52,754 nucleotides of DNA from Patescibacteria group bacterium (GTDB lineage Bacteria > Patescibacteriota > Minisyncoccia > Minisyncoccales > RBG-13-36-15). This document shows positions 8,242-50,440 of this stretch, one piece after another; position 1 is the first letter of the stretch, and the number at the start of each line of letters is the position of its first letter. The notes under the pieces are model-generated. The model was not told where the DNA came from and made no database searches. It saw nothing but the letters and a program-made list of their open reading frames with translations. The position numbers and the translations under genes were made by a program. The stretch spans positions 1 through 52,754 of the forward strand of contig JAHCSE010000003.1 of assembly GCA_018609195.1 (NCBI GenBank). The letters run 5' to 3'.

Positions 8242-8437
8242 AGTCGCTCATCCTTTTCCAGCCTTGGGCTGGCGCTCCCGAGCACATAACGGTTTATGTG
8301 CTCGGTCGCTTCGGACTCGCTCCCCAGAAACCTCTCGGTTTCTGGCGTTCGCTCCACTCACTGTTTTCCTATACGGGAAAACACCCAGTTTTCCCGACCC
8401 TTTTCTGCTTTTTTGTTAATATTAACAAAAAAGGTAG
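8242..8437 (-). repeat. Structured palindromic element, family 1, copy B
   Basis: About 195 bp made of consecutive hairpins: 8278-8305 (12-bp perfect stem), 8324-8345 (CCAGAAACC/GGTTTCTGG), 8374-8396 (CGGGAAAAC/GTTTTCCCG) and about 8411-8434 (TTTTTTGTTAAT/ATTAACAAAAAA). It shares order, loops and linkers with copies at 49921-50041, 50098-50225 and 50273-50440. It separates two segments that are adjacent at 5752-5827. On the minus strand it is preceded by TTGACA-N17-TATTAA, so it may be transcribed. No credible protein is encoded; together with the terminator it fills the 8130-8498 gap. Confidence 0.75.
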
Positions 8438-9084: not shown

Positions 9085-10413
9085 TTACTTTTGAATTAAA
9101 CTTTCAAGTAATTTCAGGACTTTTTCGTTTCTGATTTCTTCTTCATAATAACTTTTTAATTTCCCCAAGTCAAGTTCCTTTTTAGCTTTTTCTATGTCTG
9201 GGAATTTTCTCAATGTTTTATTTATTTCAGTCTTTACCTCTTCCTCGCTAACTTCAATATTTTCGGCTTTGGAAATTTCTCTCAAGATTAGGAAATTTTT
9301 AATCCTTTCTTCTGCCTGAAAGGAATTTTTGACATCCGCTTCTGATTTTTGAACTCTCTTTAAATATTCTTCAAAGCTAATTTTTAATTGGGAAGCTATA
9401 TATTTTTTCAGCATGTCTAACTGACGATTTCTTTCAGCTTCAATCAAGACATCTGGGATCTCCAAATTAATCTCCTTATTTATTCTTTCTAAAACCTCCG
9501 CTCGCATTCTTTGTCGCTCTGAAATTCCCTTTTCCGATTTCAACCCCTCTCTAATATTTTGTTTGAGCGAAGATAGGTCTTCAAATTGGCCTAAGGATTT
9601 TATAAATTGATCAGTGATTTCTGGAAGTTCCATTTTTTTAACAGATTTCATTTTTACTTTAAAATTAACAGTCTTGCCAGCTAACCCCCCACCACTTTTA
9701 GTGCTATTTCCTTGACTAAACCCTTCTTCCTGAAAAGTGGTGGGGGGTTGAAAGTGTTTAGCAGGGAATGTTAAAGAAAAATCTTTCTCCTCACCTGTTT
9801 TCATTCCTTCTAACTTTTTCTCAAAACCAGGGATTAAATTGCCCTGACCTAACAAAAATCCATCTTTTTGAGGATTCCCCATCTCAATCTGCGAGGAACT
9901 GAATTCAATCTCAACAAAATCTCCGACCTTAGCTGCTCTCTCAACCTGACTAAATTTTGCTCGAGATTTTTGAAGCTGGAGGAGGGTTCCCTCAATTTCT
10001 TCCTCTCTGACTTGAATCTCTCTTTTTTTACAGGAAGATGCAACTTTCTTGTAATCTGGTAAATTAACTTCGGGTAAGACAGGAAAGCGAGCCTTAAAAA
10101 TAAGAGGATTGCCCGGGGCCAATTTCAAAATTTTAATCTCGGGTGGGGAAACTGCCTCAATTTTATTTTCCGAAATTACCTGAAGATATTTTTCTTTTAT
10201 TGCGATATTGCCAGCTTCTCTGAAAATCTTATCTTCCCCTATCTCTCGCTTAATAACCTCTTTTGGAATTTTCCCTTCCCGAAAACCATCAATTTTTAAA
10301 TTCTTGCTAAAATCGGCGAAAACTCTTTCAATAAAAATATCCAATTCTTCAACTGGAATCTCGATCTCGATTTCCATCTCTGACTTTGGCAATTTTTCAA
10401 TTTTCGTTTTCAT
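9085..10413 (-). CDS. tig: Trigger factor (ribosome-associated chaperone), with an in-frame palindromic insertion
   Basis: Binds the ribosome exit site and folds nascent chains. 442 residues with the usual three parts: ribosome-binding N-domain (about 1-115, with the signature-region match [16 protein letters not shown]), FKBP-type domain (about 145-260) and the long helical C-domain. Between FPAKHF and LAGKTVNF the FKBP domain carries about 22 extra residues, Gly/Ser/Gln-rich. They are encoded by a 17-bp perfect inverted repeat (9683-9699/9733-9749). The reading frame stays open. It is transcribed with clpP from a leader that contains the two-hairpin element at 10424-10485. Confidence 0.95.
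9683..9749. repeat. Perfect 17-bp inverted repeat inserted in the FKBP domain of tig
   Basis: AACCCCCCACCACTTTT (9683-9699) and AAAAGTGGTGGGGGGTT (9733-9749), loop 33 nt. It coincides with the extra segment not found in ordinary trigger factors. Confidence 0.85.
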
Positions 10414-10423
10414 AAATTCCTAC

Positions 10424-10485
10424 CCCGAACTAGAGCAAAGCTCAGTTCGGGACTAGTCCCGCACCGAACTTCGTTCCGGTGCGGG
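10424..10485. repeat. Two-hairpin element, family 2, in the tig leader
   Basis: Stem CCCGAACT/AGTTCGGG with loop AGAGCAAAGCTC, linker ACTAGT, then stem CCCGCACC/GGTGCGGG. The same order, loop and linker occur at 45104-45167 ahead of dnaA, but there the first stem is CCAGCACC/GGTGCTGG. It fills most of the 10414-10516 gap. Confidence 0.8.
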
Positions 10486-10516
10486 GCAAATTACGAATAT
10501 GCAAATCGGCCAATGT

Positions 10517-12499
10517 CTAAACTAAAAATCCGACAATTAACAGAGCTACGATATTCAAAACCTTGATCATCGGATTTATAGCTGGACCTGCCGTATCTTT
10601 GTAAGGATCGCCGACTGTATCTCCAATGACTGCTGATTGATGGGCAAAAGAACCTTTCCCTCCTAAATTTCCCTCTTCAATATATTTTTTCGCATTATCC
10701 CAGGCTGCTCCTCCTGTAGTCATTGAAATTGCTACAAAAAGACCAGTGATAATTGATCCTATTAAAAGTCCTCCCAAAGCTTCAGGCCCCAAAATAAAGC
10801 CAACTAATATGGGGAAAAAAACTGGGAGTAGGGCAGGGAGAATCATCTCTTTTAAAGCAGCTTTCGTGACAATATCTACGCATTTTCCATATTCAGCTTT
10901 TGCTTTCCCCTCTATTAAACCTTTGATTTCAAGAAATTGCCTTCTCACCTCCTCAACCACTTTGGAAGCTGTTTTCGAAACTGCCTCCATTACGAGAGCG
11001 CCAAAAAAGTAAGGTAATAATCCTCCGAGTAATAAACCAATTAAAACCTTATGATTTTCTAAGAGAAATTTAGCCTCTAAACCTAAACCTTGAAGTTCCT
11101 GGCGATAGACAGAAAAAAGGACGAGAGCAGCTAAACCAGCTGAAGCAATAGCATAGGCTTTAGTTATGGCTTTCGTCGTATTACCTGCTGCATCTAAAGG
11201 GTCGGTCACCTTTCTGACCTTTTCCGAGAGATTGGCCATTTCAGCAATACCTGAGGCATTATCCGTAATTGGGCCATAAGAATCTAAAGCTATAATTATG
11301 CCAGCTAAGGAGAGCATAGCAATGGCAGCAATTCCTAGACCGTACATTCCCCCCATCCAAAAGCTAATTAAGATTCCAAAGGAAATGAGAATAATTGGGG
11401 GGGCAGTGGATCTCATTCCCACTGCCAATCCAGTGATAATATTTATGGCAGGCCCTGTTTCTGAAGCTTCTGCAATTGATCTCACAGGTTTGAATTTTTT
11501 GGAGGTAAAGTAGTAAGTGATTAAAAAAATCCCTCCGGCGATTGCCAATCCCATCAGGGCTGGAATATAAAGAGAGAGAGTTTGAAGATCAAGAGATGGA
11601 GCCGATCTTTTAATGAAAGGATAAAAACCAATAGCAGATAGCACAGCTGACCCTACTAAACCCTTACTCAAAGCCATCATGATATTTTCCTTCTTTCCCA
11701 ACTTAACAAAGAAAACAGAAATAACTGAAGCTAAAATAGCAATTGAGGCTAAAAAGAGAGGCAAAAGAATAGCGTCTGGCTTTCCAGGAAAAAGCAGCGC
11801 CCCCAACAACATAGCTGCAATTAAGGTGATAGCGTATGTTTCAAATAGGTCAGCTGCCATTCCAGCTACATCTCCAACATTATCTCCAACTTGGTCAGCA
11901 ATGACGGCGGGATTTCGAGGGTCGTCTTCTGGAATTCCTTTCTCAATTTTTCCTACCAAATCTGCCCCAATGTCGGCGGCTTTCGTGTAAATTCCTCCTC
12001 CTAATCGAGCAAAAACTGAAATTAAACTCCCTCCAAAACCCAAGGCCACTAAAGCTTTTAAATCCTGAGTTAGAAAATAAAAACCAGCCACTGCCAATAA
12101 ACCCAGTCCAACTACCAAAAGCCCAGTGATAGCTCCTCCTCGAAACGCTAAATTAAAAGCGGGAATTAACCCCCTTTTCGCAGCCTCTACTACTTTCACA
12201 TTGGCCTGAGTGGAAACCATCATTCCGATGAAACCTGATATCGCCGAAAATCCGGCTCCGATTAAAAAACCAAGGGCAGTTTTAAAGTTAATTCCTATTA
12301 AAAGGATTACAAATACAAAAATAGCTACCAGAAAGATAGTAAGATATTGCCTTCTCAAATAAGTAAGCGCTCCTTCCCGAATAGCTAAAGATATCTCAAT
12401 TTGTTTTCCGGAACCTGAAGGAGCTTTTTGAACCATCCGTATTAAAAAGAAGGCAAAGAGTATGGTGAAGAGAGAAACAAAAATTGGTAAAAACAACAT
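10517..12499 (-). CDS. hppA: Membrane-bound proton-translocating pyrophosphatase, K+-independent type
   Basis: Hydrolyses pyrophosphate and pumps H+ across the membrane. 660 residues with about 15-16 membrane helices. Signature motifs: [37 protein letters not shown] and the C-terminal [18 protein letters not shown]. The segment [15 protein letters not shown] has Lys at the position that is Ala in K+-dependent enzymes and Thr three residues on, which marks the K+-independent H+-pumping class. It follows nusA after 22 bases on the same strand and is probably cotranscribed. In a fermentative, energy-limited cell it would recover energy from biosynthetic PPi. Identification firm; ion specificity by motif. 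Confidence 0.96.
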
Positions 12500-15657: not shown

Positions 15658-16538
15658 AAATTGCTAAACTCGCTTTTTAATTTTTGATCAAGACAAACTT
15701 CGGGATAAAGATCCCAGGGATAGATTTCAATGAGCTGAATATTGTGCTTACGACAGAGGTCTCTTTTTTTCTGTATAGCGCGATCATAACGAGGGCTATC
15801 TTTCGCAAGACCAAAATATTCAATAAACGCGCCTTTCTGGATACTCCAATCAGCTTTATGATTTGTCCCTGGATACGGTACGTTCTTTATGTGGAAAATT
15901 CTATGATTTGTAAGCCAATTGTCAATGATAGCTTCAGAAATAGAATCACATAAATGTCCGTCTAGCGCTTTTGTGTTCACGCGTTTATACATACGTTGAC
16001 TATGTGAACGATTTGGTTTAAGTCCTGCAGCAATAACAGCGTTATTCCAAGAACCAAAAGAGCGGATGCATGAGTCAACTATATTCTTTAACTCCCGTTT
16101 TGCTGGAACTCTTTTTAATTCATGATCAGTTAACCTTATTATATCTATAAGATCTTGGACAGTATATCTTTTCATCGCCATCGATTTGCATTTTTTAGAA
16201 CAATACTTCGCGTCTCTTGTAAATCGTTTATCACATAGAGTATTTGCACAAACCTTAAATCCCGGTCCTCTTCTAGGAAATTTCCGATTATTCACCTTAG
16301 CCGCACAAGATTTGGAACAATAGTTATGAAGAGAAATCGCTTTTTGGCTTCTTATGAAATGTTGGCCACAAAGGACGTTTTCGCAAATTAATTGTTGTTT
16401 TCTTGTTTTATATCTACCTTCGCATTCTCTCGAGCAATAAAAATTATGTCCAAGTTTATTGTTTTCATTGACGCGTCGCGTATCTCGATATATAGAATTT
16501 CCGCAAAGTTTACAAAAAACTTTGTGTAATTGAGGCAT
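15648..16538 (-). CDS. Zinc-finger protein with Vsr/EDxHD-like endonuclease domain, probable selfish endonuclease
   Basis: 296 residues, unnamed. The N-terminal third has several CxxC...CSxxC zinc-binding clusters (FCKLCG...FYCSREC, ENVLCG...NYCSKSC, ANTLCD...KYCSKKC). Next is a helical segment ending GSWNNAVIAAGL, as in DNA-binding repeats of homing enzymes. The C-terminal domain has HKADWSI, GAFIEYFGL and IQKKRDLCRKHNIQLIEIYP, a PD-(D/E)xK-type nuclease layout like Vsr and EDxHD homing endonucleases. It is wedged between a tRNA-like fragment and tRNA-Ala, with its TAG stop inside the tRNA-Ala 5' end. Nuclease activity is inferred. Confidence 0.7.
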   Translation of the reverse strand: MPQLHKVFCKLCGNSIYRDTRRVNENNKLGHNFYCSRECEGRYKTRKQQLICENVLCGQHFIRSQKAISLHNYCSKSCAAKVNNRKFPRRGPGFKVCANTLCDKRFTRDAKYCSKKCKSMAMKRYTVQDLIDIIRLTDHELKRVPAKRELKNIVDSCIRSFGSWNNAVIAAGLKPNRSHSQRMYKRVNTKALDGHLCDSISEAIIDNWLTNHRIFHIKNVPYPGTNHKADWSIQKGAFIEYFGLAKDSPRYDRAIQKKRDLCRKHNIQLIEIYPWDLYPEVCLDQKLKSEFSNLGL

Positions 16539-16555
16539 TTAATTAGAAAATATAT

Positions 16556-16604
16556 TGGTGCAGCCGGATTCGCACCAGCAATCTCCGCGTCCTCCCCCCA
16601 CACC
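16556..16604 (-). pseudogene. tRNA-like fragment: acceptor stem plus T arm only
   Basis: On the minus strand GGTGTGG (16598-16604) can pair with CTGCACC (16557-16563), and GCTGG-TGCGAAT-CCGGC forms a T arm. Only about 18 bases lie between acceptor and T arm, so D and anticodon arms are missing. It ends 17 bases before the endonuclease-like gene and starts 11 bases after tRNA-Pro, suggesting a tRNA destroyed by insertion or deletion. Confidence 0.5.
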
Positions 16605-16615
16605 AAAGTTAACTT

Positions 16616-16686
16616 TCGGGCTGCCCAGATTTGAACTGGGACTAAATTCTCCCGAAGAATTCGTGCTACCATTACACTACAGCCCG
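16616..16686 (-). tRNA. tRNA-Pro (anticodon CGG)
   Basis: Acceptor CGGGCTG/CAGCCCG with discriminator A; anticodon arm AATTC-TTCGGGA-GAATT gives CGG. T arm CCCAG-TTCAAAT-CTGGG. The second proline tRNA in the window (the other reads TGG). Confidence 0.95.
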
Positions 16687-16717
16687 TTACATTGATAAGC
16701 TCCCTTTACTTAAAATT

Positions 16718-18241: not shown

Positions 18242-18389
18242 ACTCTATTAATATACCAGATATTTGACATTTTGAATAGATTTCTATCAAAAAACCGCCT
18301 TTTTACCCCGAACCGTACTTGTTCTGGTTTGGGGCTTGGCGATTTTTTAATCATTACTTCCAGCTTAAACTCAGATAATTGTTGAGGTA

Positions 18390-45066: not shown

Positions 45067-45103
45067 TGTGTAGTGGACACCTTGCTTTAAAAGAAAGGCA
45101 TCC

Positions 45104-45236
45104 CCAGCACCAGAACAAAGCTCGGTGCTGGACTAGTCCCGCACCGAAACGGAGTTTCTGGTGCGGGGCAATCCTCAAATCGCATCCGCGATTTGGAGAA
45201 CCCAAGTGGTTTCCAAAATTACTAAAGTAATTTTGG
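45104..45236 (+). repeat. Four consecutive hairpins in the dnaA leader, including family 2 element
   Basis: 45104-45131 (CCAGCACC/GGTGCTGG), ACTAGT linker, 45138-45167 (CCCGCACC/GGTGCGGG), 45174-45198 (CAAATCGC/GCGATTTG core) and 45213-45236 (CCAAAATTACT/AGTAATTTTGG). The first two form the same element as 10424-10485. They occupy most of the 361-bp rpmH-dnaA gap. Confidence 0.8.
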
Positions 45237-45285
45237 AGTAAGAATTTGCAACCTGTAGTTTTCCATTTATTATTTTATATAATTT

Positions 45286-50272: not shown

Positions 50273-50440
50273 GACCTTGTTAAAGGTCGCTCATCCTCTT
50301 CCAGCCTTCGGCTGGCGCTCACCTTGTTCGCTTCGGATTCACTCCTTAAAACCCCTCGGTTTTAATATTTCCGCCACGGGAAAACACCCAGTTTTCCCGC
50401 CCCTTTTCTGCTCTTTTTGCTAATTTAAAATTAGCAAAAA
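50273..50440 (-). repeat. Structured palindromic element, family 1, copy C, with its own terminator-like end
   Basis: Minus orientation: CTTTTTGCTAATT/AATTAGCAAAAAG, CGGGAAAAC/GTTTTCCCG (50377-50399), TTAAAACC/GGTTTTAA (50346-50365), CCAGCC/GGCTGG near 50302. It ends with GACCTT-TAAC-AAGGTC (50273-50288) and nine T. The closing hairpin plus T-run looks like an intrinsic terminator, so a structured small RNA is possible. Confidence 0.65.

Follow-up and report, generated by a model that had tools for sequence, protein, structure and literature searches.

A small dispersed palindromic repeat of Parcubacteria, with a 66-nucleotide form compatible with open reading frames

The window considered here, that is the whole stretch of 52,754 nucleotides that was analysed, carries two copies of a two-hairpin element that is very probably a small, dispersed and non-autonomous REP/MITE-like palindromic repeat of Parcubacteria, with an ORF-compatible 66-nt form and a functional resemblance to the Rickettsia palindromic elements. 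Palindromes that are read in frame as protein have until now been a textbook curiosity of Rickettsia and of a few REP-rich bacteria.

From position 10424 to 10485, the first copy reads CCCGAACT-12 nt-AGTTCGGG, ACTAGT, CCCGCACC-12 nt-GGTGCGGG, and the second, from 45104 to 45167, reads CCAGCACC-12 nt-GGTGCTGG, ACTAGT, CCCGCACC-14 nt-GGTGCGGG. The halves of the element are one bulged hairpin in opposite orientations, set tail to tail around the self-complementary ACTAGT, and each comprises an 8-bp stem, a one-base bulge, an inner stem of 4-5 bp and a 3-nt loop. The earlier note had described an identical layout for both copies, with a loop of 12 bases; this is correct overall, but the second loop has 12 nt in copy 1 and 14 nt in copy 2, and each supposed loop is mostly paired internally (GAGC/GCTC, GAAC/GTTC), leaving the one-base bulge and the 3-nt loop. 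The plus strand of copy 2 is an open frame, PSTRTKLGAGLVPHRNGVSGAG, that resembles the copies found inside genes. Positions are collected in Table 1.

Table 1. Features of the window, with the dimers found at tRNA gene ends of other genomes (positions in the named locus)
Feature	Position	Strand	Description	Evidence
Copy 1	10423..10486	.	64 nt, nearly self-complementary, between tig and H+-pyrophosphatase gene	Covariance model R1, 89.5 bits, E 3.9e-18; both arms matched by model R2
Copy 1 hairpin 1	10424..10451	-	CCCGAACT..AGTTCGGG, reverse-complement copy of unit	R2, 59.6 bits at 10423-10457, minus strand
Copy 1 linker	10452..10457	.	Palindromic ACTAGT	Sequence
Copy 1 hairpin 2	10458..10485	+	CCCGCACC..GGTGCGGG	R2, 58.2 bits at 10452-10486, plus strand
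Copy 2	45103..45168	+	66-nt form, in 5' untranslated stretch of dnaA	R1, 81.3 bits
Copy 2 hairpin 1	45104-45131
Copy 2 linker	45132-45137		ACTAGT
Copy 2 hairpin 2	45138-45167
Weak single-hairpin relative	18305..18334	+	CCCCGAACC..TGGTTTGGGGC	R2, 25.6 bits, E 0.0065
tig (trigger factor)	9085..10413	-	Start about 10 nt from copy 1	Pfam PF05697, PF05698
Membrane H+-pyrophosphatase gene	10517..12499	-	End about 30 nt from copy 1	Pfam PF03030
dnaA	45286..46635	+	Start about 117 nt past copy 2	Pfam PF00308
tRNA-end dimer, L079	1501-1562
tRNA-end dimers, L083	725-795; 1501-1571
tRNA-end dimer, L086	1502-1560
tRNA-end dimer, L088	1501-1568

The analysis confirmed that the two-hairpin element exists and is far above chance. 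Over 14 hairpins (half-elements), 97.6% of stem cells are paired and double-sided stem changes were observed 22 times versus 8.6 in shuffles, falling to none in a control where the partner was slid by one base; the claim that both strands of the stem change together, made from the window copies, is thereby borne out. In the 854-kb home genome (G000), GGACTAGTCC occurs 8 times versus once for the reversed control, and a covariance model finds about a dozen strong copies (E 2e-18 to 5e-9) followed by a tail of weaker and single-hairpin relatives. Covariation and covariance-model matches together support a structured, covarying, repeated element. Two partial relatives had also been proposed in the window, at 18305 and 24682: the first is real, if weak, but the second matches neither R1 nor R2 and has its stem in another register.

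Since both window copies lie upstream of essential genes and their hairpins covary strongly, they could be taken for a conserved structured RNA leader common to tig and dnaA, such as an autoregulatory element, a thermosensor or a protein-binding site, and a leader shared by these two genes was indeed the proposal of the earlier note. We consider this very improbable. The nearest relatives (G001, G002 and G003) have neither copy near tig or dnaA, the element is missing from every tig region examined in relatives, and no copy lies within about 1.5 kb of the other dnaA loci examined; on this absence at orthologous loci the idea of a leader RNA of tig and dnaA was rejected. An Rfam scan returned tRNAs only and no family matching the element, and the same sequence is dispersed elsewhere, occurring between genes, next to tRNA genes and within one of them, and in many protein-coding regions, with no fixed orientation to the downstream gene. 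Placement is thus dispersed, as in the random scatter that had been named as the alternative to a shared leader, yet the structure, which that alternative supposed to be unconserved, is conserved in relatives. The best reading of the tig and dnaA copies is that they are two chance landings, any effect on either gene being secondary. By eye, copy 2 sits in the home genome between a promoter-like stretch and the dnaA start codon, and the dnaA leader is shorter at that place in the nearest relatives. In this leader, past copy 2, lie two more A+T-rich hairpins, CAAATCGC..GCGATTTG and CCAAAATTAC..GTAATTTTGG (window 45175-45245).

At a cut-off of E 1e-4, the repeat is matched in 30 of the 147 genomes searched from the same order, with up to about a dozen copies per carrier genome, while a phylum-wide sample gave matches at 1e-7 in 4 of 379 genomes, two of them outside the order. 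An exact-pattern scan of 84,980 species recovered 14 loci, all in Parcubacteria/Patescibacteria MAGs or in bacterial MAGs without a taxon name, and the source data are largely MAGs; named carriers include Nealsonbacteria, Jorgensenbacteria and Yanofskybacteria, all Parcubacteria MAGs. No Rickettsia locus was among those recovered by this exact-pattern scan. No match to the repeat was obtained from viral contigs, phages, plasmids or E. coli genomes, so that no carrier element was found among them.

For a closer description, 75 distinct copies were taken from the best-scoring carrier genomes, so the proportions given here are not population estimates; 27 of them lie inside genes, each within a continuous, stop-free ORF. 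The lengths of all 27 are divisible by 3 (66 nt in 19 copies, and 63, 72, 48 or 81 nt in the rest) and all share one reading register, which encodes the peptide PSTRAKLGAGLVPHRN(K/E)VSGAG, with S or R as its second residue. By contrast, the lengths of the 48 copies outside ORFs are split 16/16/16 modulo 3. The association with frame (Fisher p 2e-9) is inflated, because the in-ORF set was itself defined by frame continuity; a point independent of this criterion is that no frame-breaking interruption of a gene is visible among the 48 remaining copies. ORFs that cross the element in other phases seem to be 5' extensions, readings of tRNA genes, or spurious.

According to Pfam, the host genes encode TopA, PolX, two UvrC, Fpg, a HolA-like protein, LigA, uL22, bL21, RsmI, two MiaB, Pth, TypA, PNPase, IspH, a DegQ-like protease, a dCTP deaminase-like protein, glutamine synthetase, TatD, an HDAC-like protein, two Cdc48-like proteins and two methyltransferases; two of the 27 ORFs (L087 and L128) have no Pfam match, and neither has the ORF of L020. 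The in-frame copies in TatD, the HDAC-like protein, PolX, LigA and a Cdc48-like ATPase are found in loci L098, L100, L106 and L108. In sense orientation, coding copies are preceded by A at positions -1, -2 and -3 in 21, 24 and 23 of the 27 cases, respectively, and outside genes a G before and a C after the element are common. Copies may also be nested, a 63-nt dimer lying in the hairpin loop of another dimer (L127, L128 and L129, each at 1502-1564), and in L129 the nested dimer remains in frame inside UvrC. A further copy, L106 6401-6466, lies just before a prepilin cleavage motif (GFTMIELL) in another register, where it may supply a start codon or a longer leader peptide.

A strong hairpin of uniform length in the coding sequence of housekeeping genes could also be a tiny intron or a translational bypass element, cut out of the RNA or passed over by the ribosome, leaving the protein as it was. 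Splicing or bypass would not need copies that are stop-free, in register and a multiple of 3 in length, as all 27 are, and no frame-breaking intragenic copy was seen; we rejected this explanation on frame and length, and hold it to be scarcely credible.

Comparison with homologues gives evidence for insertion. The methyltransferase has exactly 22 extra codons between KLEK and EFEA, and the aligned homologues, two of the same family included, are without them; G007, a member of a different family, carries a diverged copy of its own in the methyltransferase, at that very position. In TypA, a 48-nt insert is absent from the DNA of G001 and G007, and the protein has 16 extra residues relative to E. 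coli BipA. Likewise, the PDB homologues of LigA, TatD, Pth, bL21 and RsmI are without the peptide segment. Empty sites in DNA and in protein show that the element was inserted as a unit and retained in frame. No clear target-site duplication is seen at the methyltransferase site, and the TypA copy has TTCTGGG on both sides, which may be stem homology. Insertions at the same site were found for the methyltransferase (G000/G007; L023, L150), MiaB (G026/G035; L147, L075) and the Cdc48-like protein (G040/L108; L077, L108), and in different families these could reflect gene transfer or site preference.

With 48 of the 75 examined copies outside genes, several of them just past gene or tRNA ends, the repeat could instead be an intergenic functional element, a terminator or an mRNA stabiliser, its intragenic copies being rare accidents; REPs are capable of both roles (PMC3733652). 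This we regard as improbable, since the dnaA copy shows no T-run terminator pattern, the element is not conserved at orthologous places, and 27 of the 75 copies are inside genes.

The anticodon of a tRNA-Cys(GCA) gene (L029 1483-1700; contig C21 of G000, about 16500-16710) is interrupted, at G34|C35, by a two-hairpin element of 148 nt; the loop of the element's first hairpin encloses another, complete tRNA-Cys gene. When the flanks are joined, a full tRNA-Cys results. The inner tRNA-Cys is identical to that of the relative G001, and the order of the neighbouring tRNA-Leu is kept in several relatives. In other genomes, diverged dimers begin at the 3' ends of tRNA genes (Trp, Lys, Arg, Tyr and Asn; Table 1). 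A single-hairpin relative with a GCAAGT tail also occurs in two genomes (L035 1430-1600, at C18:35344 of G000, and L119), where it sits between the repeated start of a GAPDH-like gene (MIKVAINGFGR...IAINGFGRIGR).

Among known systems, the Rickettsia palindromic elements (RPE; Ogata et al. 2000, 2002) are palindromes of about 150 bp, in ten families, that lie in frame in unrelated housekeeping genes, carry an ORF for a conserved peptide, occur also between genes and have no transposase of their own (PMC10969869). The present repeat is likewise a palindrome inserted in frame with a conserved encoded peptide (27 copies, one register), but it is a 66-bp hairpin dimer with ACTAGT, and its hosts are Parcubacteria rather than Rickettsia. 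RPEs are the closest match in the way the element works, and REP dimers the closest in structure. The survey of GTAG/CGTC-tagged REPs describes bulged palindromes of 20-40 bp, frequent inverted homo- or heterodimers and alternative complementary stem residues, and reports that some dimers are intragenic and in frame, encoding 20-30 amino acids, as in R. conorii RPE-4/6 and O. terrae; Patescibacteria do not appear in the parts consulted (Di Nocera et al. 2013, PMC3733652).

The repeat could be a GTAG-type REP dimer (BIME) of the classical kind, with a RAYT tyrosine transposase as its mobiliser and a tag that has merely diverged. Its bulged hairpins of 28-30 nt fall within the 20-40 bp range of imperfect palindromes, and unit size, inverted tail-to-tail dimers and placement both between and inside genes match REPs as that survey presents them; GTAG/CTAC linkers occur in a few diverged copies (L081, L083 and L084), and RAYT genes are present in 79 of the 147 genomes of the order. 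However, the main linker is ACTAGT and its variants; of 150 aligned strands only 8, all from diverged copies, have GTAG/CTAC, and none has the CGTC tag. The home genome has no match to PF01797 (RAYT transposase), the presence of RAYT genes is not clearly associated with carriers of the repeat, and none of the RAYT loci searched in carrier genomes has a clear flanking copy, the palindromes there being unrelated to the repeat. On these grounds RAYT was rejected as the mobiliser, and since neither the defining tags nor a cognate RAYT turned up when looked for, we did not file the repeat as a GTAG REP; we consider such a REP dimer unlikely, though a serious rival. Like prokaryotic MITEs (PMC10969869), the repeat is short, non-autonomous, dispersed, built of inverted repeats and sometimes fused in frame to genes, but no parent insertion sequence and no clear target-site duplication were seen. 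Nematomorph mitochondrial coding palindromes (PMC6649704) and PARCEL repeats (PMC2996958) are likewise described as palindromes read as protein, although of other sequence, size and organisms.

In the REP/MITE-like repeat that we favour, two inverted, bulged REP-like hairpins make up the unit, with a palindromic ACTAGT tag connecting their tails, and the unit spreads by insertion of about 64-66 bp, mostly between genes or beside and inside tRNA genes. Mobilisation would presumably be the work of a transposase acting in trans, whether single-strand (REP/RAYT-like) or other, perhaps via single-stranded hairpins as proposed for REPs. The 66-bp form, in which one inner stem has 4 bp and the other 5 bp, has a length of 22 codons, is stop-free in one register and is able to enter protein genes; an intragenic copy would then simply be translated to a peptide rich in Lys, Arg, Gly and Pro (PSTRAKLGAGLVPHRNKVSGAG), probably placed in a loop of the folded protein, and the insertion would survive where the host protein tolerates it. 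A bolder version, which is possible and which we put forward tentatively, is that Patescibacteria harbour a family of mobile, protein-coding palindromes not described before, in which the 66-bp heterodimer is shaped for reading as protein (one inner stem longer by 1 bp, giving exactly 22 stop-free codons). Such a family would be spread by a non-RAYT enzyme, could hold a tRNA gene within the loop of a hairpin, and would give core proteins of replication, repair and translation in different families one common flexible peptide.

No earlier report of such a repeat in Patescibacteria was found in a literature search that covered few subscription papers or preprints. The repeat appears to form a sequence-distinct family in streamlined Parcubacteria, with hosts that include LigA, TopA, TypA, bL21 and Pth, and suggests that even in minimal genomes new segments of protein can be built by selfish DNA. 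It also explains odd insertions of 22 residues that otherwise resemble lineage-specific domains or annotation errors, and the 66-nt stop-free form, together with the empty sites, opens the idea to direct testing, through metaproteomics and the comparison of strains. A separate and unrelated palindromic repeat, CGGGAAAACACCCAGTTTTCCCG with a conserved flank, is present in the window at 8365-8414 and 50368-50417, the two copies being 90% identical.
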